A stretch of 64,000 bases of DNA from Citrobacter sp. Cu233 (lineage in GTDB: Bacteria; Pseudomonadota; Gammaproteobacteria; Enterobacterales; Enterobacteriaceae): NCBI RefSeq assembly GCF_030332225.1, contig NZ_JAOWIF010000028.1:434001-498000 (forward strand). Reading direction: 5' to 3'. Below are positions 50,457 to 57,975 of the stretch, in pieces. The position numbers were made by a program, and so were the translations under genes. The notes below the pieces were generated by a model. It made no database searches, was not told where the DNA came from, and saw nothing but the letters and a program-made list of their open reading frames with translations. How positions within the stretch are numbered: position 1 is the stretch's first letter; each line of letters starts with the position of its first letter.

Positions 50457-52607
50457 TTAACGCCTACGGCGGCGCGTGGGTTTCGCTTTTTCTTTTGGTT
50501 TTACTATAACGTCTGGCACAGCAGGTTGCTCTATCGGAAAAATGGGTAACGCATTCAGTAAACGCTTGCCATAGTTTTTGGTCAACAACCGCTTATCGTA
50601 GATCACGACTTCACCCCAGCAGCCATGGCTACGAATGAGCCGCCCAACTTGCTGGATCAAATTGAACGACGCTGCCGGTAAGCTTTGCACCTCAAAAGGG
50701 TAGCGGTTCAGGCTTTTCAGCCACTCGCCCTCAGTGACCACGACCGGACTGTCGATGGGCGGAAACGCGATTTTGTGAATATGTACCTGAGTCAGCAATT
50801 CGCCTTTCAAATCCAGACCTTCGGCAAAAGATTGCAGTCCGACCAGTACACTGCGTTCGCCGTTTTCCACTCGCTTTCGGTGTAACTCCACCAGACGATA
50901 GCGCGGCTGGTCACCCTGTACCAGCAGCAGCAAGCGCAGATCGGTAACGTGCTCAAGAAAACGCTGCATCGCCCGCCCGCTGGCAAAAAGCACCAACATG
51001 CCCTGATGTTTTTTACTTTCCAGTTGCTCGCGGAAATAGGCCGCCATTTCGGCTATATGCTGCTCTTCGTTATCTATCAACGGTTCGTAGCGCATCTGCG
51101 GAATCACGATTTTGCCTTGCTCTACATGGTTAAACGGTGAATCCAGTGCAACAAAGCGGTCTCCGGCTTTTTCTTTCAGACCGCTCATCTCCTGCAGGCG
51201 CGAGAAACTGTTAAGTGAACGGAGCGTGGCTGAGGTCACAATAATATGCGGTACGCTGCGCCACAGCAGTCTTTCGAGCTGATCGCTCACACGGATCCCG
51301 ACACAATGGAACCAGACATGGAGCTGCCCATCGCGCACCTCGCGCGTTGCCCATTTACTCACTGGCGCGCCTGACGACTGCGCCAGCGACGCCAGACGCC
51401 ACAATTTGCTTTGCGCCTCGAACATGCCCAATGCCCGGTTCATCTGCAAAATAACCCGATGCAGCCGCACAATATCGTGGGTACCGGTTTTTTCACTGAG
51501 ATCGTTCAGGAACAGTTCTGCCAGGCCGCGCAGCATTTCCGTGAGTTTCGCCAGTCGCTGGCAGATCTCCATCACTTCACCAGGCAGTTCTCCCATTGCA
51601 AAGCGGTGTTCCGCCTCCTGCGTAGCGGGCATATAGAGATTGAGGATATTATTAAGTGAGGCAATCAGTTCATATAGCTCTTCACAGTGACCATTCAACC
51701 GCTCGGCGTTCGCCAGCGGCGGCGTGGTTTTCGGGCGGAACTGCTCCATGCAGGTCGCCACTAATTTGCAGAACAGATCCAGCTGAAGTCGATACCAGGG
51801 GGCGCTGATTTCTGCACTCATCTCCAGCGCATCGCGGGCGACATCCGGCAAATGATGGCCTTCATCAAGGACTAACAGCAGGTTTTTCGGCTCTGGCAGA
51901 ACGGCTTCGCTTTCCATTGCCGCCATCACCAACGCGTGGTTCACCACCACCACTTCGGCTTCCTGAATCTCGCGGCGGGCGACAAAGAAAGGACATTCAC
52001 GGTAGTAGTGGCAGTTGCGGTTCAGACAGCTCGCTTTATCGGTACTCAGACGCTGCCAGAGTCCGTCATCAATAGCGATATCAGTGTGATCGCGCAACCC
52101 GTCCCATTTATAGCTGTCGAGATCGCTTTTCAGCCTGGCGCAGCGCTTTTGTTCTTCCTGATTATTTGGCGTCAGGTCATCGTCGAGAAAGGCCAACAGA
52201 TCCTGTTGATTGGGTTCGGTACTCGCCAGCGCGGCTAAATTGCGCGGGCAGACATAACGCCCACGACCAAAAGCAGCGGTAAAACGCAGATCGGGGATGA
52301 TTTTACGCAACAACGGCAGGTCTTTGCTGTAGATCTGATCCTGCAACGCGACGTTAGCGGTACTGACCACCAACGTTTTCTGTTCTTCACGCGCAATGGC
52401 GATACCGGGGATCAGGTAAGATAACGTTTTCCCTACACCGGTCGGTGCTTCAATCGCCAGATGCCGTCCCTCTTCCCCTGCCAGCGTTTTCGCGACATCG
52501 GCAATCATCTGTCGCTGCGGTGCACGGGGAATAAAGTCGGGGATCTGTTCCTGAAGCGCCTTATACCAGGCGGCTATTTGCGCTTTTAGCGCCGCGGTTA
52601 ATGCCAT
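50457..52607 (-). CDS. dinG: ATP-dependent DNA helicase DinG
   Basis: A 716-residue XPD-like 5'-3' helicase that unwinds R-loops and D-loops. Walker A IEAPTGVGKTLSY; the four 4Fe-4S cysteines lie in GRGRYVCPRN and ASCLNRNCHYYRECPFF; motif II is LVLDEGHHLPD (DEGH box); motif VI is QQVGRLIRSHG. The basic tail ends KAKPTRRRRR. The ATG at 52607 starts MALTAALKAQ; the 15-codon upstream extension would cross the LexA box and is rejected. Confidence 0.96.
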   Translation of the reverse strand: MALTAALKAQIAAWYKALQEQIPDFIPRAPQRQMIADVAKTLAGEEGRHLAIEAPTGVGKTLSYLIPGIAIAREEQKTLVVSTANVALQDQIYSKDLPLLRKIIPDLRFTAAFGRGRYVCPRNLAALASTEPNQQDLLAFLDDDLTPNNQEEQKRCARLKSDLDSYKWDGLRDHTDIAIDDGLWQRLSTDKASCLNRNCHYYRECPFFVARREIQEAEVVVVNHALVMAAMESEAVLPEPKNLLLVLDEGHHLPDVARDALEMSAEISAPWYRLQLDLFCKLVATCMEQFRPKTTPPLANAERLNGHCEELYELIASLNNILNLYMPATQEAEHRFAMGELPGEVMEICQRLAKLTEMLRGLAELFLNDLSEKTGTHDIVRLHRVILQMNRALGMFEAQSKLWRLASLAQSSGAPVSKWATREVRDGQLHVWFHCVGIRVSDQLERLLWRSVPHIIVTSATLRSLNSFSRLQEMSGLKEKAGDRFVALDSPFNHVEQGKIVIPQMRYEPLIDNEEQHIAEMAAYFREQLESKKHQGMLVLFASGRAMQRFLEHVTDLRLLLLVQGDQPRYRLVELHRKRVENGERSVLVGLQSFAEGLDLKGELLTQVHIHKIAFPPIDSPVVVTEGEWLKSLNRYPFEVQSLPAASFNLIQQVGRLIRSHGCWGEVVIYDKRLLTKNYGKRLLNALPIFPIEQPAVPDVIVKPKEKAKPTRRRRR

Positions 52608-52621
52608 GAGAAAACCTGAAA

Positions 52622-52641
52622 TACTGTATAAACAGCCACTA
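52622..52641 (-). promoter_or_regulatory. LexA box upstream of dinG
   Basis: On the gene strand the site reads TAGTGGCTGTTTATACAGTA, close to the LexA consensus CTGT-N8-ACAG and almost identical to the E. coli dinG box. It lies 15 bases before the dinG start, so dinG and ybiB belong to the SOS regulon. Confidence 0.85.
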
Positions 52642-52713
52642 TTGTGGCACATTTCAGACGCTCAATGTACCTTTTTCCCCCATTATGGAAAGCGGCTCGC
52701 AGCACTGGCTTAA

Positions 52714-52812
52714 ATTGCCGGATAGTGGCGTACACGCCTTATCCGGCCGACAATCCGGGTTAGCACCTTATTCAGCCTACGGTGAGGAACATTGCAGGCC
52801 GAATAAGGGTGT
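52714..52812. repeat. REP cluster between dinG and the DASS gene
   Basis: At least three REP-type units in alternating orientation: TTGCCGGATAGTGGCGTACACGCC (52716 on, with the pairing CTTATCCGGCC ending 52748), ACCTTATTCAGCCTACGG (about 52766-52783) and GCAGGCCGAATAAGG (52794-52808). It marks the left border of the accessory transporter/lyase block. Confidence 0.8.
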
Positions 52813-52815
52813 TGG

Positions 52816-54237
52816 TTAATAGTATCCCAACAACTTCCACCACAGCATGCCCACGGCAAAAATGATAATCACATTCGCCGTCACCACGCAGAGGTTGATT
52901 TTGTAAAAGCGCGGACGTTCAAAATACCCCTGGGCAAAATAGATAGGACCTGGCCCACCACCGTACTCGGTATTGCCCCACATCAGGTTACTGAAGATAC
53001 CAAAACAGATAGCGACCATCATCGGTGGCGCGCCTGCTGCGATCGCCGTTGCCGCAAAAGGGGCATACAGTGCAGCAACATGCCCGGTCGCCGTGGCGAA
53101 GAGATAATGAACGTAAATATAAAGAATCCCCAGCATAATAAAGGATTCTATCGCGCCAAATCCCTGAATGCCGCTGCCCAGTTTTATCGTCATCCATTTA
53201 ATAAAGCCCAGATCGGCAAGTCCGGTCGCGAGGCTAATAATGACGCTAAACCAAATCACCGTATCCCAGGCCGCGTGGTCATTGAGCAGGCTTTTCCAAC
53301 TGACCGCGCCAGAGGCAAACAGATACGCGGCCAGCCCCAGCCCGACAGAGGTCGCCGATAATCCCGTGATCAAGCTGGTGCCCCAGCCGACCAACGCCAG
53401 CACAAAGCCAAATGCGACCTTTTTCTCGTTACTGCTCATCGCACCGAGTTCACCCAGCGCCTGCTTGCCCATCGCTTTTGCCTCTGGCGTACGCTTAAGC
53501 TCAGGGTCCAGCAATTTATAGACCAGAAGCGGCATCAGGCAGAAACAGACCATCGCCGGAACCACTGCGGAAACAAACCATCCGCCCCAGGTTATCTCAA
53601 CGCCTAACGAGGATTTTGCCAGACTGGCCACCAGCGGATTCGCCGCCATCCCGGTGAGGAATATCGCCCCGGTAATCGGCGTAAACTGAAAGCACACCAT
53701 GGTTAAGAAATCACCGATACGTTTGCCGGTTACCCCAGGAGCCGAGCCCAGCACGTCATTGATTGAGCGGGTGATGGGGAAAATAATCCCCCCGGAGCGG
53801 GCAGTAACCGACGGCATTGCCGGGGCCATAATAAGATCGGACACCCCCAACGAGTAGGCGATACCCAGGCTGCTGCCGCCAAAAAGCGACAGCATTTTGT
53901 ACGCAATACGTTTCCCAAGCCCTGAGGTAACAAACCCCAGAGAAAGGACATAGGCGCAGAAGATAAGCCATACCGTGCCGGACGCGAACCCGGAAAGCGC
54001 TTTCGCCTCTGGCAACGTTTTGGTAAAAATCACCACGCAAAGCGCAATCAACATGACCGCCCCCGAAGGGAGCGGTTGGGTCAAAATGGCGGCAATAGTG
54101 GCGGCAAAAATAGCAAACATATGCCAGGCCTGAGGCGTCAGGCCATCAGGTACGGGATAAAACCAAATGATCCCCCCAATCACCAGCGGTATCAGGAACG
54201 ACAGAATGGATTTTCCCGTGACAGAATTCGTTGACAT
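52816..54237 (-). CDS. DASS-family anion (dicarboxylate) transporter
   Basis: A 473-residue inner-membrane transporter of the divalent anion:Na+ symporter / CitT-TtdT-YbhI group, with about 12 hydrophobic segments. The paired selectivity signatures are visible, including MAPAMPSVTARSGGIIFP, a substrate-binding stretch common to CitT-like antiporters, and NTEYGGGPGPIYFAQGYF. It probably imports a di- or tricarboxylate, perhaps in exchange for succinate. It starts 33 bases after the lyase gene, so they are co-transcribed. The substrate is likely that of the lyase; I cannot name it. Confidence 0.88.
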   Translation of the reverse strand: MSTNSVTGKSILSFLIPLVIGGIIWFYPVPDGLTPQAWHMFAIFAATIAAILTQPLPSGAVMLIALCVVIFTKTLPEAKALSGFASGTVWLIFCAYVLSLGFVTSGLGKRIAYKMLSLFGGSSLGIAYSLGVSDLIMAPAMPSVTARSGGIIFPITRSINDVLGSAPGVTGKRIGDFLTMVCFQFTPITGAIFLTGMAANPLVASLAKSSLGVEITWGGWFVSAVVPAMVCFCLMPLLVYKLLDPELKRTPEAKAMGKQALGELGAMSSNEKKVAFGFVLALVGWGTSLITGLSATSVGLGLAAYLFASGAVSWKSLLNDHAAWDTVIWFSVIISLATGLADLGFIKWMTIKLGSGIQGFGAIESFIMLGILYIYVHYLFATATGHVAALYAPFAATAIAAGAPPMMVAICFGIFSNLMWGNTEYGGGPGPIYFAQGYFERPRFYKINLCVVTANVIIIFAVGMLWWKLLGYY

Positions 54238-54270
54238 AAAAATATCCTTATTCCGTTAACCCGAGAACCG

Positions 54271-55623
54271 TCATTTCTGCGACAGATATTTGGCCAGCAC
54301 CTGATCGACCATCGCAGGCGCCATTCCCAGGTAATTTGCCGGGTCGGTCAACTCTTCAATCAACTGCGGATCCAGACGTTCTGAAACTGACGGCATCGCA
54401 TTCAGTACATCCGCCAGTCGTCCCCCTTGTTCATTGACGATACGGCAGGCGTCATACACGACATCATGCGCATCCTGACGACCAATATACGGTGCCAGTC
54501 CCATCATGACCGCTTCAGCCACAATCAGTCCGTTAGTCATGCCGAGGTTACGTTTCATCGCAGCTTCATCAACCACCAGCCCCGCTAACATAAAGTTGGC
54601 CTGATGCAATGCCCCGGCGCTGAGGACGAAACTTTCCGGGATAGCAATCCATTCTGCATGCCACGGTCCGGTCGCCCGCTCCAGATCCTGCACCATCGCA
54701 TCCAGCATGAGCCCTGCTTGCTGACGCACACCTTTCGCACAGGCCAGCATCAACTCGCTGGAAATAGGGTTACGTTTCTGTGGCATAGTACTGCTGGCGC
54801 CGCGTCCTTTAACAAACGGTTCATACAGCTCACCAAACTCATTTGATGCCATCAGCATCACGTCATAAGCAATTTTGCCCAGCGAACCGGTCATCACCGC
54901 CAGCAGGTTTACGGCTTCTGCAAAACCATCACGTGCAACGTGCCAGGTGGAGGTCGGTACATTGAGCCCTAACTCTTCCATCATGGCTTTTTGTACCGCC
55001 AGACCCTTATCCCCCAGCGATGCCAGCGTACCGGCTGCACCAGCAAATTCGCCAACCAGTACACGTGGACGCGCCTGGGCAAGACGTTCAGCGTGGCGTT
55101 CGAACATATCCAGCCAAATAGCGGCTTTATAACCAAAGGTTACTGGCAACGCTTGCTGCAAATGGGTTCTGCCCGCCATTGGCGTATCGCGGTAACGGCG
55201 CGCGAGGTCAGCGAGCGTCGCACGAAGTTTGTCCATATCGGTTTCAATTAACGCAAACGCATCACGAATTTGCAGAACTACCGCGGTGTCCATGATGTCC
55301 TGCGTGGTTGCGCCCCAGTGCACATAGCCACCAGATTCCCCGGCTTGTTTCGAAATCTGGTGTACCAGCGGCAGGATTGGATAACCCACAATCTCGGTTT
55401 CATGGCGCAGCAAATCGAAATCAAGCGTATCGGCATTACATTTCTCGGCAATTTCCTGTGCCGCAGCCTCGGGTATCACACCGCAGCGTGCCTGGGCTTT
55501 GGCTAAGGCCACCTCCACTTCCACGTATTTGCGTACCAGCTCGCGATCGTCAAACACCGCGCGCATCGCCGGTGTGCCGAAAGAATCCCTGAACAGAACA
55601 GAATCAAGTACATTCGAAGCCAT
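54271..55623 (-). CDS. Fumarase/aspartase-superfamily lyase (PcaB/ASL-like)
   Basis: A 450-residue enzyme of the fumarase/aspartase superfamily. All three conserved regions are intact: GGYVHWGATTQDIMDT (C1, with the catalytic His), AGRTHLQQALPVTFG (C2) and GRGASSTMPQKRNPISSE (C3, mobile loop with the catalytic Ser). It should eliminate a group from an aspartate- or malate-type substrate to give fumarate, or cycloisomerise a carboxymuconate. The closest recognisable types are adenylosuccinate lyase and 3-carboxy-muconate cycloisomerase (PcaB); no other purine or protocatechuate genes are present, so an N-substituted aspartate is an attractive alternative. The start follows CAGGGGGATTT. Paired with the transporter. 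Confidence 0.88.
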   Translation of the reverse strand: MASNVLDSVLFRDSFGTPAMRAVFDDRELVRKYVEVEVALAKAQARCGVIPEAAAQEIAEKCNADTLDFDLLRHETEIVGYPILPLVHQISKQAGESGGYVHWGATTQDIMDTAVVLQIRDAFALIETDMDKLRATLADLARRYRDTPMAGRTHLQQALPVTFGYKAAIWLDMFERHAERLAQARPRVLVGEFAGAAGTLASLGDKGLAVQKAMMEELGLNVPTSTWHVARDGFAEAVNLLAVMTGSLGKIAYDVMLMASNEFGELYEPFVKGRGASSTMPQKRNPISSELMLACAKGVRQQAGLMLDAMVQDLERATGPWHAEWIAIPESFVLSAGALHQANFMLAGLVVDEAAMKRNLGMTNGLIVAEAVMMGLAPYIGRQDAHDVVYDACRIVNEQGGRLADVLNAMPSVSERLDPQLIEELTDPANYLGMAPAMVDQVLAKYLSQK

Positions 55624-55698
55624 AAATCCCCCTGGAAAATCTGATAATGATAAGATGCGTGTTTCGGATCATTTGTTGGATAAACAAAGACCGCTTCA

Positions 55699-55785
55699 AT
55701 GTCCAGACATAACCAAATGTCCGTACATTTAAATGTGCGGACATTTATAGTATTCATGAGAAATGTATGGAATAGTCCGTACATA
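55699..55785. promoter_or_regulatory. Operator cluster between lyase and GntR genes
   Basis: Four related elements in 86 bases: ATGTCCAGACAT (55699-55710), AAATGTCCGTACATTT (55715-55730), AAATGTGCGGACATTT (55731-55746) and AGTCCGTACATATTT (about 55774-55788). The second and third abut, each near-palindromic, and together form a 32-base inverted repeat with one mismatch. They lie in the 202-base divergent promoter region and are the obvious binding sites of the adjacent GntR regulator. Confidence 0.75.
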
Positions 55786-55825
55786 TTTTTGTGATGAAGA
55801 TCATTAATTTTTTGATGAAACCGCG

Positions 55826-56560
55826 ATGAAAGAATCTCTGTACAAGCGAATAGCACGTGAACTGGCACAGCAAATTTCGGTGGGTACCTTTGCTCCCGGC
55901 TCGCTGTTTCCCACAGAAATGGAGCTGTGTGAAACGTGGCAGGTCAGCCGCCACACCATAAGAGAGGCGTTGAGGGAATTAACAGAACAGGGGCTGATTT
56001 CACGGCGTAAAGGTGCAGGAACACGCGTTTGCGAACCACAGGCAAACGGTGTTAATCACCCGCTATCGCATCTGGAAGATCTCTTACTGCTGGCAAAAAA
56101 TAACCTGCGCGTGATTAAGAAAATCGACGAGATTGTGGCGGATATTGAACTTTCCCAGATGATTGGTTGCCCGCCAGGCTCCCGCTGGCTGCACATTGCC
56201 AGTACTCGCGAAGATGCGCAGAACCCGGATGCACCAATCTGCTGGACCGACAGCTACGCCAGTACGGATTACGCCAAGCTGCGCACGTACATCCGCGACG
56301 ATCCGCACTCGTTAATTAGCGATCTGATCGAAACGCATTACGGCATTAAAAGCCATGAAGTTCATCAAACGATTACGGCCGTCGGCGTGCCCAGGAAGAT
56401 GGCAAAAATCCTTAACGTAGCACCTGATTCTCCAGCGATGAGAATTGTGCGTCGCTATCTGGACAGGGAAGGAAAGGTATTTGAAACGACGATTTCTATT
56501 CATCCGGCAGGACGCTATACCTGCTCAATCGTACTGAAATCGCAAAGTTCTGGGGAATGA
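55826..56560 (+). CDS. GntR/HutC-family transcriptional regulator
   Basis: A 244-residue regulator: winged HTH at residues about 1-70 (LYKRIARELAQQISVGTFAPG, then TWQVSRHTIREALRELTEQGLISRRKGAGTRV, in two parts) followed by a UTRA ligand-binding domain. It is divergent from the lyase-transporter pair and the region between holds four matching operator-like elements, so it most likely represses that pair until its inducer, probably the imported substrate, is present. Not found at this locus in K-12. Confidence 0.9.
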   Translation: MKESLYKRIARELAQQISVGTFAPGSLFPTEMELCETWQVSRHTIREALRELTEQGLISRRKGAGTRVCEPQANGVNHPLSHLEDLLLLAKNNLRVIKKIDEIVADIELSQMIGCPPGSRWLHIASTREDAQNPDAPICWTDSYASTDYAKLRTYIRDDPHSLISDLIETHYGIKSHEVHQTITAVGVPRKMAKILNVAPDSPAMRIVRRYLDREGKVFETTISIHPAGRYTCSIVLKSQSSGE

Positions 56561-56624
56561 TGCATTGCGTATCCGACCTACGCGACAGGCAGGCCGGATA
56601 ACACGTTTACGCAGCCATCCGGTA
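56561..56624. repeat. REP pair between the GntR gene and rhlE
   Basis: GCGTATCCGACCTACGCG (about 56567-56584) and AGGCCGGATAACACGTTTACG...CCATCCGG (56591-56622) form REP-type hairpins. With the REP cluster at 52.7 kb they bracket the accessory block on both sides. Confidence 0.75.
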
Positions 56625-56631
56625 ACGTAAC

Positions 56632-57975
56632 TTACTGCGCAGACGAGGGTTTGCGCGGACGACGCGGCGGACGAGGCTTATCGCCCGCCGGTTTGCCTTC
56701 GCTGCTACGCGGTTTCGCTTTTGGCGCACCGCCATCCTGACGACGCGGCTGCTGCCCACGACCAGCACCACCCTGACCACGACCACCGCCACCACGCTGC
56801 TGACGTCCGTTCTGGATCGGCTCAGCTTTGATTGACGGGTCTGGCTCATAGCCAGGGATCGCGATACGCGGGATCTCTTTTTTCAGCAGCTTCTCGATAT
56901 CACGCAGCAACTTGTGTTCATCAACGCACACCAGCGACAACGCTTCACCGGTTGCCGCCGCACGGCCGGTACGGCCAATACGGTGCACGTAATCTTCCGG
57001 TACGTTTGGCAACTCGTAGTTCACAACATGCGGCAACTCTTCGATATCCAGCCCGCGTGCTGCAATATCGGTCGCCACCAGCACGCGAATATCCCCGGAT
57101 TTAAAATCAGCCAGCGCACGTGTACGCGCACCCTGAGATTTATTGCCGTGGATCGCCGCACTGCGAATACCGTCTTTGTTCAACTGTTCTGCCAGATGGT
57201 TCGCGCCGTGTTTAGTACGGGTAAAAACCAGTACCTGCTGCCAGTTACCCTGACCAATCATCTGCGACAGCAGTTCACGTTTACGTTTTTTATCAACGAA
57301 ATGCACATGCTGAGTCACCTGCTCTGACGCGGTATTACGACGCGCTACTTCAATTTCCAGCGGATTGTGCAGCAGCTTTTCGGCAAGCTGCTTAATGTCG
57401 TCAGAGAACGTGGCCGAGAACAGCAGGTTCTGACGTTTTGCCGGCAGTTTAGCCAGTACGCGACGAATATCATGGATAAAACCCATATCCAGCATTCGGT
57501 CGGCTTCATCCAGCACCAGGATCTCAACCTGATCCAGCTTCACCGCATTTTGGTGTTCCAGATCGAGCAAACGCCCCGGCGTTGCAATCAGTACATCCAC
57601 ACCACCGCGCAGTTTCATCATTTGCGGGTTAATGCTCACGCCGCCAAAAACGACCAGCGAGCGAATATTCAGATACTTACTGTAATCACGCACGTTTTCG
57701 CCAATCTGAGCCGCCAGTTCGCGGGTTGGCGTCAGGATCAGCGCACGTACCGGACGACGGCTTTTGCCATGCGGCTGGTGGGTAATGAGATGTTGTAACA
57801 GCGGCAAGGTAAAACCTGCCGTTTTACCCGTACCGGTCTGGGCACTTGCCATCAGATCGCGGCCTTCCAGCACAGCAGGGATCGCCTGCTGCTGAATAGG
57901 GGTAGGTTCACGGTAACCCTGCTCGGCAACGGCACGCAAAATATCAGGATTTAAACCAAGGGAATCAAAAGACAT
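56632..57975 (-). CDS. rhlE: DEAD-box RNA helicase RhlE
   Basis: A 447-residue DEAD-box ATP-dependent RNA helicase involved in ribosome assembly and mRNA decay in E. coli. Motifs: [10 protein letters not shown] (I), PTRELA (Ia), [12 protein letters not shown] (II), FSATF (III), HRIGRTGRA (VI). The tail from about residue 395 is Gly/Arg-rich ([20 protein letters not shown]) then Pro/Arg-rich, slightly shorter than in E. coli. It is divergent from cecR; a perfect palindrome between them is the CecR operator in E. coli, known to control both. Confidence 0.95.

Follow-up and report, generated by a model that had tools for sequence, protein, structure and literature searches.

A three-gene cassette between dinG and rhlE of Citrobacter sp. 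Cu233 is likely to encode a regulated uptake system for a 2-substituted succinate together with a lyase of the fumarase/aspartase superfamily that splits it into fumarate and a leaving group (HX). The cassette lies in a stretch of 64,000 nucleotides of contig NZ_JAOWIF010000028.1 (the window, to which all unmarked coordinates refer). It consists of a DASS (PF00939) symporter gene (52816..54237, minus strand, 473 amino acids), a lyase gene (54271..55623, minus strand, 450 amino acids, with Lyase_1 and ADSL_C domains) and, on the plus strand, a gene for a GntR family regulator with a UTRA ligand-binding domain of the HutC subfamily (55826..56560, 244 amino acids). The subfamily in which this lyase falls is uncharacterised. 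An earlier note had recognized a three-gene unit here, with a DASS transporter, an intact superfamily lyase and a divergent regulator; all three reading frames are indeed intact, and the family calls agree with Pfam and NCBIfam profiles. A transporter, a lyase and a regulator make an ordinary kind of trio. This one is unusual in its conservation, in the modular exchange of its parts and in the misleading name that its lyase carries.

In the scheme that we propose, the GntR/UTRA protein would bind tandem TGTnCGnACA sites and sense a substrate or product, upon which the lyase-transporter operon would be expressed. The DASS symporter, judging by its family, would bring in a di- or polycarboxylate, from which (as a 2-substituted succinate) the lyase would remove HX by beta-elimination to leave fumarate. 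The proposal of fumarate release draws on the chemistry of the superfamily, on catalytic motifs that are intact in this lyase and on the fumarase-family genes that accompany it elsewhere. The fumarate would be drained by a housekeeping fumarase in Citrobacter and by an in-operon fumarase-family gene in other bacteria. As far as the excerpt of PMC9706529 goes, such lyases have equilibria that lie on the side of the adduct, and drainage of fumarate could pull the cleavage forward. The tandem site of the regulator turned up at no other place in the genomes that were searched, and HX is therefore probably, in enteric bacteria, a compound that central metabolism can use with no additional dedicated genes.

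Conserved neighbours and a conserved operator

The surroundings of the lyase were compared in 80 loci, the best 80 of 221 lyase relatives. Neighbour families were named from representatives scanned with Pfam and NCBIfam, and statements of absence hold for the proteins scanned. A regulator cluster lies directly upstream of and divergent from the lyase gene in 66 of the 80 loci (the gene caller behind the later counts missed the GntR gene of locus L041, which is present in an earlier gene listing). The next gene downstream is a carboxylate transporter component in 68 loci (SDF in 32, DASS in 22 and TctC in 14); the remaining loci have an M29 peptidase gene (4), some other gene (5) or no gene on that strand (3). 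This arrangement supports the import-and-cleave unit that had been described from the window. Counted more widely, within about 5 kb of the lyase, a transporter is present in 70 of the 80 loci and an M29 gene alone in five, all of them in Bradyrhizobium. There the lyase (for example L059:8459-9712, plus strand) is about 75% identical to that of the window and is followed by the M29 peptidase gene rather than by a transporter gene. All 22 DASS-coupled loci belong to Enterobacterales or Pasteurellaceae, and TRAP transporters accompany the lyase in Thalassospira and at L165. With SDF, DASS, TctC and TRAP systems all found beside the lyase, the carboxylate importer has been exchanged among four families.

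In the window, 33 bp separate the DASS and lyase genes, and a spacer of 202 bp lies between the lyase gene and the GntR gene. The DASS protein scores 352.4 bits against TIGR00785 (cut-off 198.6) and 421 bits against PF00939 (cut-off 27). It is 78-84% identical to its counterparts in the cassettes of Actinobacillus sp. GY-402 and Pectobacterium aroidearum, 35% to E. coli YbhI and 31% to CitT and TtdT. The regulator combines a GntR helix-turn-helix (PF00392) with a UTRA domain (PF07702). Its description as HutC-type therefore stands at the level of the subfamily and fails for HutC itself, as it reaches 92 bits against the HutC equivalog profile, below the cut-off of 220.

A tandem operator-like site, TGTCCGTACA-N6-TGTGCGGACA, occupies positions 55718..55743 of the spacer between the GntR and lyase genes (no strand assigned). 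Nine variants of the pattern were compared, and TGTnCGnACA, the commonest among them, was picked after the spacer of the window had been viewed. It occurs in the corresponding spacer of 23/23 usable loci from enteric bacteria and Pasteurellaceae and of 37/40 from other bacteria (60/63 altogether), against 0.12 and 0.06 sites, respectively, expected from mononucleotide shuffles; the count used 63 of the 80 loci, and the others have no called GntR gene or an unsuitable spacer. The weight of the pattern comes from this conservation in other loci. The count in the window alone is insufficient (three single-pattern sites against 1.12 expected, with 12 of 100 shuffles as high, which is not significant). 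Of 12 genomes searched for the tandem form, 11 have it, each time at the cassette only, and the Cu233 genome showed no other tandem site of this pattern; a reversed control pattern gave no site in these 12 genomes. A tandem site confined to the cassette makes the regulator look local in its action. The same operator in bacteria of two classes argues for a probable single inducer common to their cassettes.

The lyase among its relatives

The lyase scores 181.7 bits against PF00206 (Lyase_1, cut-off 27) and has the C1-C3 motifs of the superfamily (HWGATTQD, GRTHLQQALP with the catalytic His154, and ASSTMPQKRNPIS), so its membership is clear. Its fold is not in doubt either, because it is 59% identical over 438 residues to the closest solved structure by sequence, the 'Fumarate lyase' PDB 3c8t. 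The two proteins have the motifs GRTHLQ.ALP and ASSTMPQK in common; 3c8t branches outside the 28-row tree group that contains the window lyase, and its entry name gives no substrate. Identity to the window lyase is 66-98% for the tabulated members of the clade and 58-61% for deeper relatives. His154 is kept in 82/82 clade rows; at this position Tad1 has Asn and the PcaB rows have Trp. Gln282 of the clade is replaced by His in PcaB and yxe-type rows, and His322, present in 99% of clade rows, by Gln in PcaB, Arg in yxe-type lyases and Glu in Tad1. We infer that the loop bearing His322 may face the leaving group.

A tree of 50 proteins, which included six PcaB rows, three lyases of yxe-type loci, Tad1 and 3c8t, sets the subfamily apart both from PcaB and from the yxe-type lyases, which resemble S-(2-succino) lyase (2SL). 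From tree, motifs and profiles taken together, the database names of this uncharacterised subfamily, PcaB (3-carboxy-cis,cis-muconate cycloisomerase) and adenylosuccinate lyase, are very probably wrong, as the earlier note had suspected. Behind these labels in public records there seems to be a catabolic enzyme in its own right, present in many Pseudomonadota.

PcaB itself is hardly credible as the function. Six enteric PcaB proteins are 39-41% identical to the window lyase and alike in domains, relatives of the lyase are annotated pcaB, and one NCBIfam pcaB model, TIGR02426, is passed by 0.15 bit (355.9 against a cut-off of 355.75). The scores against NF006554 (501.4, cut-off 595) and NF004631 (237.8, cut-off 371) fall short, as does that against PRK09053. 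The PcaB rows are taken from loci in which thiolase and hydrolase genes lie nearby (one locus was scanned, and the others were assigned by cluster) and carry GRTW in 6/6 cases where the window lyase has GRTH. A branch with 100/100 support separates them from the window lyase, so that the clustering with PcaB that would have spoken for the label is not seen. In addition, a search of the Cu233 genome for one gene of the pathway, that of the protocatechuate dioxygenase beta subunit (TIGR02422), gave no match. The adenylosuccinate lyase label fails on profile scores (312.5 bits against TIGR00928, cut-off 326.2) and on the presence of a purB gene elsewhere in the genome, whose product reaches 803.6 bits against PRK09285 (cut-off 446). 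The genome also encodes FumC, AspA and two ArgH-type proteins at other loci; the second ArgH-type protein (L209:661-2034, plus strand) scores 614.7 bits.

By score, the nearest characterised protein is the fungal trans-aconitate decarboxylase Tad1 (426 bits, 47% identity), which has an ASSTMPQK loop like that of the window lyase and joins the tree at the base of the lyase clade (98/94). TctC and DASS families include tricarboxylate carriers, which would suit a decarboxylase or isomerase acting on trans-aconitate or another tricarboxylate. We nevertheless consider such an activity improbable. Tad1 has RSN where the window lyase has RTH, and its hallmark Asn in place of the catalytic His is found nowhere in the clade; its branch is long (1.69) and its placement unsure, and no itaconate-degradation genes occur among the partners scanned. 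As a separate observation, Citrobacter and relatives have another lyase (L030-L032 and L128), 32% identical to that of the window and adjoining a porin-like gene, which groups in the tree with lyases having Asn for the catalytic His.

Described fumarate-releasing lyases offer a further comparison. In the excerpt of PMC9706529, 2SL of Dickeya and Enterococcus is an S-(2-succino) lyase of the same superfamily, encoded in a salvage (yxe) cluster with an acetyltransferase, an ABC importer and a deacetylase, none of which occurs in the cassette. For the comparison, three lyases of yxe-type loci stood in for the published 2SL proteins; the loci were recognised by an M20 deacetylase gene and in one case by an SBP_bac_3 gene as well. 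These stand-ins are 38-41% identical to the window lyase and form a separate clade with the loops GRTHGM and GSTTMPH and Arg at position 322, features that the window lyase lacks. When the yxe-type deacetylase, binding protein and a 167-amino-acid protein were compared by BLAST with the genes of the 80 loci, weak matches at L042 and L093 were all that appeared. A 2SL-like salvage of succinated thiols is in our view very improbable, even though it has in its favour this degree of identity and a known fumarate-releasing relative.

The yxe-type loci deserve a remark of their own. Two of them (L121:1892-3232, minus strand, and the fourth gene of L120) encode an MmgE/PrpD protein, the family to which we take YxeQ to belong; the L121 protein gives matches to B. 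subtilis IRG1 (7bra, 187 bits) and iminodisuccinate epimerase (2hp0, 124 bits). One idea is that this protein epimerises the S-(2-succino) carbon and so lets a stereospecific lyase use both diastereomers. The function of YxeQ is called unknown in the excerpt of PMC9706529.

Two other members of the superfamily give strong profile matches that stay well short of the curated thresholds. The lyase matches XcbD (3-sulfopropionylcysteine synthase) with E 1e-126 and 423 bits against a curated cut-off of 600, and nitrosuccinate lyase with E 6e-104 and 349 bits against one of 650. In two genomes of the same family (L122 and L123) a second lyase, 41-42% identical to that of the window, lies beside a LacI-type regulator; at L122 its best profile is XcbD, and a DASS transporter is there too, a parallel case of lyase-DASS pairing.

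Fumarate, partner genes and candidate substrates

The best evidence for fumarate as a product is that genes of two unrelated fumarase families hold the same position at the lyase loci of other bacteria, and it supports the release of fumarate that had been put forward as plausible. Of the 80 loci, 22 have a class II fumarase-like gene in the vicinity of the lyase, 21 of these with the gene at most three places downstream and on the strand of the lyase. With the class I fumarase-family gene of L061 the total comes to 23/80; class I genes take the position after TctC in L061, L197 and L198. Among six plasmid loci whose context was examined (of 72 records), two have an annotated class II fumarate hydratase. 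The class II partners have RTH in 22/22 cases and SSIMPGK in 21/22, to be compared with GRTH/SSIMPGK in the FumC and GRTQ/SSIMPAK in the AspA of the Cu233 genome. Thirteen class II genes, two of them from L161 and L166, were scanned and scored 547-620 bits against fumC, 365-411 against aspA and 436-492 against PRK12273, a model named for aspartase that the FumC of Cu233 passes as well. The best PDB matches of the L197 class I partner, the sole one compared, are fumarate hydratases.

Several points weigh against import and fumarate-releasing cleavage as the role of the cassette. All 13 scanned class II partners lie below the fumC cut-off of 664.75. The class I partners fall short of all equivalog cut-offs and reach those of subfamily models alone, which cover tartrate dehydratase too. 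For both, the label 'fumarase' thus holds at family level only. No fumarase-family gene was found in 24/24 loci of Enterobacterales and Pasteurellaceae or in 33/56 others (some of them on short contigs). The five Bradyrhizobium loci with an M29 peptidase gene have no detected GntR gene or carboxylate transporter, and the search for the tandem operator gave no site in one of 12 genomes (G018), although the cassette is present there. Finally, the nearest characterised protein, Tad1, is a decarboxylase at the base of the clade, so the type of reaction may have shifted.

If the lyase does release fumarate, the nature of HX turns mainly on the partner genes. We rank an O-linked C4 substrate slightly above an N-substituted aspartate, with low confidence in either, because the scanned partners act on fumarate, malate or tartrate, with no aspartase among them. 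The enzyme could be an O-succino (ether) lyase or could attack a malate- or tartrate-type C4 hydroxy acid directly, which would yield fumarate together with malate, tartrate, glycolate or water; we hold this as a tentative possibility. Besides the two fumarase families, it draws on tartrate- or malate-type partners at three loci. L064 and L162 encode paralogues, 74% alike, of Bll6730 (PDB 2dw7, 395 bits), which is presumably D-tartrate dehydratase; they are distinct from the second copy in genome G678. Relatives of the Bll6730-like protein occur in 12 of 17 genomes searched, and only that of G678 adjoins the lyase. The partner at L195 is a tartrate dehydrogenase (TIGR02089, 548 bits, cut-off 470.4). 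Such partners are few, and their presence may reflect no more than the usual gene content of C4-acid islands. We know of no natural ether substrate for an O-succino lyase, and none of the titles listed in a search of open-licence literature concerns natural ether substrates or 3c8t. The Cu233 genome also has a Bll6730-type (MR/MLE) protein at G000:C24:168497-169630, 48% identical to that of L162.

Cleavage of an N-substituted aspartate (iminodisuccinate or another N-succino amino acid) to fumarate and an amine or amino acid, the kind of substrate that the earlier note had called plausible, seems to us slightly less likely still. It fits the chemistry of the superfamily and the presence of the catalytic His, and iminodisuccinate-cleaving C-N lyases exist. 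Yet no aspartase was found among the partners scanned, the class II partners uniformly have RTH instead of the RTQ of AspA, and the lyase reaches 94.6 bits against the argH profile of argininosuccinate- and EDDS-type C-N lyases, far under the cut-off of 279.5 (the ethylenediamine disuccinate (EDDS) lyase is, we assume, ArgH-like). Genes of the MmgE/PrpD family, which includes iminodisuccinate epimerase, lie near L053 and L106 and are not operon partners there. The epimerase was rejected as a partner of the subfamily: the one lyase with an MmgE/PrpD gene right behind it, at L124, is a different lyase, and related genes lie in the yxe-type loci. At L124 (6040-8974, plus strand) a lyase 38% identical to that of the window precedes an MmgE/PrpD protein (161 bits to iminodisuccinate epimerase), a pairing that would be expected of an iminodisuccinate epimerase-lyase system.

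The most specific version of the O-linked proposal is an undescribed route in which a regulated importer and an ether (O-succino) lyase serve a natural malate- or tartrate-type polycarboxylate. The route would have spread horizontally through enteric bacteria, Pasteurellaceae, Burkholderiales and Alphaproteobacteria, swapping its transporter among four families and its fumarase between two while keeping lyase, regulator and operator. As a whole we think this unlikely to hold. Whatever the substrate, conservation of the operator and of the gene pair suggests that these bacteria use one nutrient in common. The reversibility of the chemistry means that a simple screen for fumarate consumption could reveal it, and a small stand-alone import-and-cleave unit would be a clean tool for biocatalysis and for tests of lyase specificity.

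The dinG-rhlE interval and the spread of the cassette

The cassette is flanked by dinG (50457-52652) and rhlE (56632-57975). E. coli K-12 has the order rhlE-ybiA-dinG, as the earlier note stated, and the cassette had been taken to stand at the place of ybiA. A profile search of the Cu233 genome found no NADAR/ybiA family member (PF08719), so ybiA is missing here and was not relocated, but its absence is not tied to the cassette. All 17 Citrobacter genomes sampled have dinG, nine have a lyase orthologue of at least 97% identity, and three have a PF08719 protein, none of them near dinG. In 8/8 cassette-free genomes dinG directly adjoins rhlE, with 46-51 bp between matches and no ybiA; the cassette therefore did not displace ybiA, and the interval is a clean presence/absence site for it. 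Replacement or relocation of ybiA is ruled out by its absence from most of the sampled Citrobacter genomes, whether the cassette is present or not.

The 'REP clusters' said to bracket the cassette come down to one repetitive extragenic palindromic (REP)-like element on each side in a pattern scan: a perfect core between dinG and the DASS gene (52734..52747, minus strand) and a degenerate core with two mismatches between the GntR gene and rhlE (56593..56606, plus strand). Promoter and terminator scans did not clearly exceed shuffles. The stretch 52650-56640 gave no megablast match in complete E. coli genomes, a search sensitive from about 85% identity upward whose set may omit records very close to the window's genome. 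Base composition is uninformative about foreign origin (52.4% G+C in the cassette and 52.1% in the window).

The order GntR-lyase-DASS recurs in Trabulsiella, Pectobacterium, Brenneria, Serratia, Yersinia massiliensis and Pasteurellaceae, with different neighbours. A site common with Trabulsiella, where the cassette lies beside a DEAD-box helicase gene, was ruled out, that gene being 38-40% identical to rhlE. The window lyase is 84-89% identical to Pasteurellaceae rows, and Pasteurellaceae and enteric lyases form one tree group (100/100) in which the internal order is not resolved. The subfamily as a whole is found in Enterobacterales, Pasteurellaceae, Burkholderiales and Alphaproteobacteria, and its presence is sporadic: lyase matches with E <= 1e-140 occur in 5/394 genomes of the order and 16/398 of the phylum (overlapping samples), and matches with E <= 1e-135 in 10/385 genomes of the class of G703 and 10/250 of the order of G683 (samples that include their centre genomes). 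This similarity and grouping, together with the sporadic presence, suggest horizontal transfer, and the cassette is probably a self-contained catabolic unit spread in this way. None of the titles listed in searches of open-licence literature concerns this gene cluster, from which we do not claim its absence from print. Decayed copies also occur: Symbiopectobacterium 'North America' (L051) has both lyase and DASS genes in pieces, and in genome G043 (L133) the lyase gene is in pieces.

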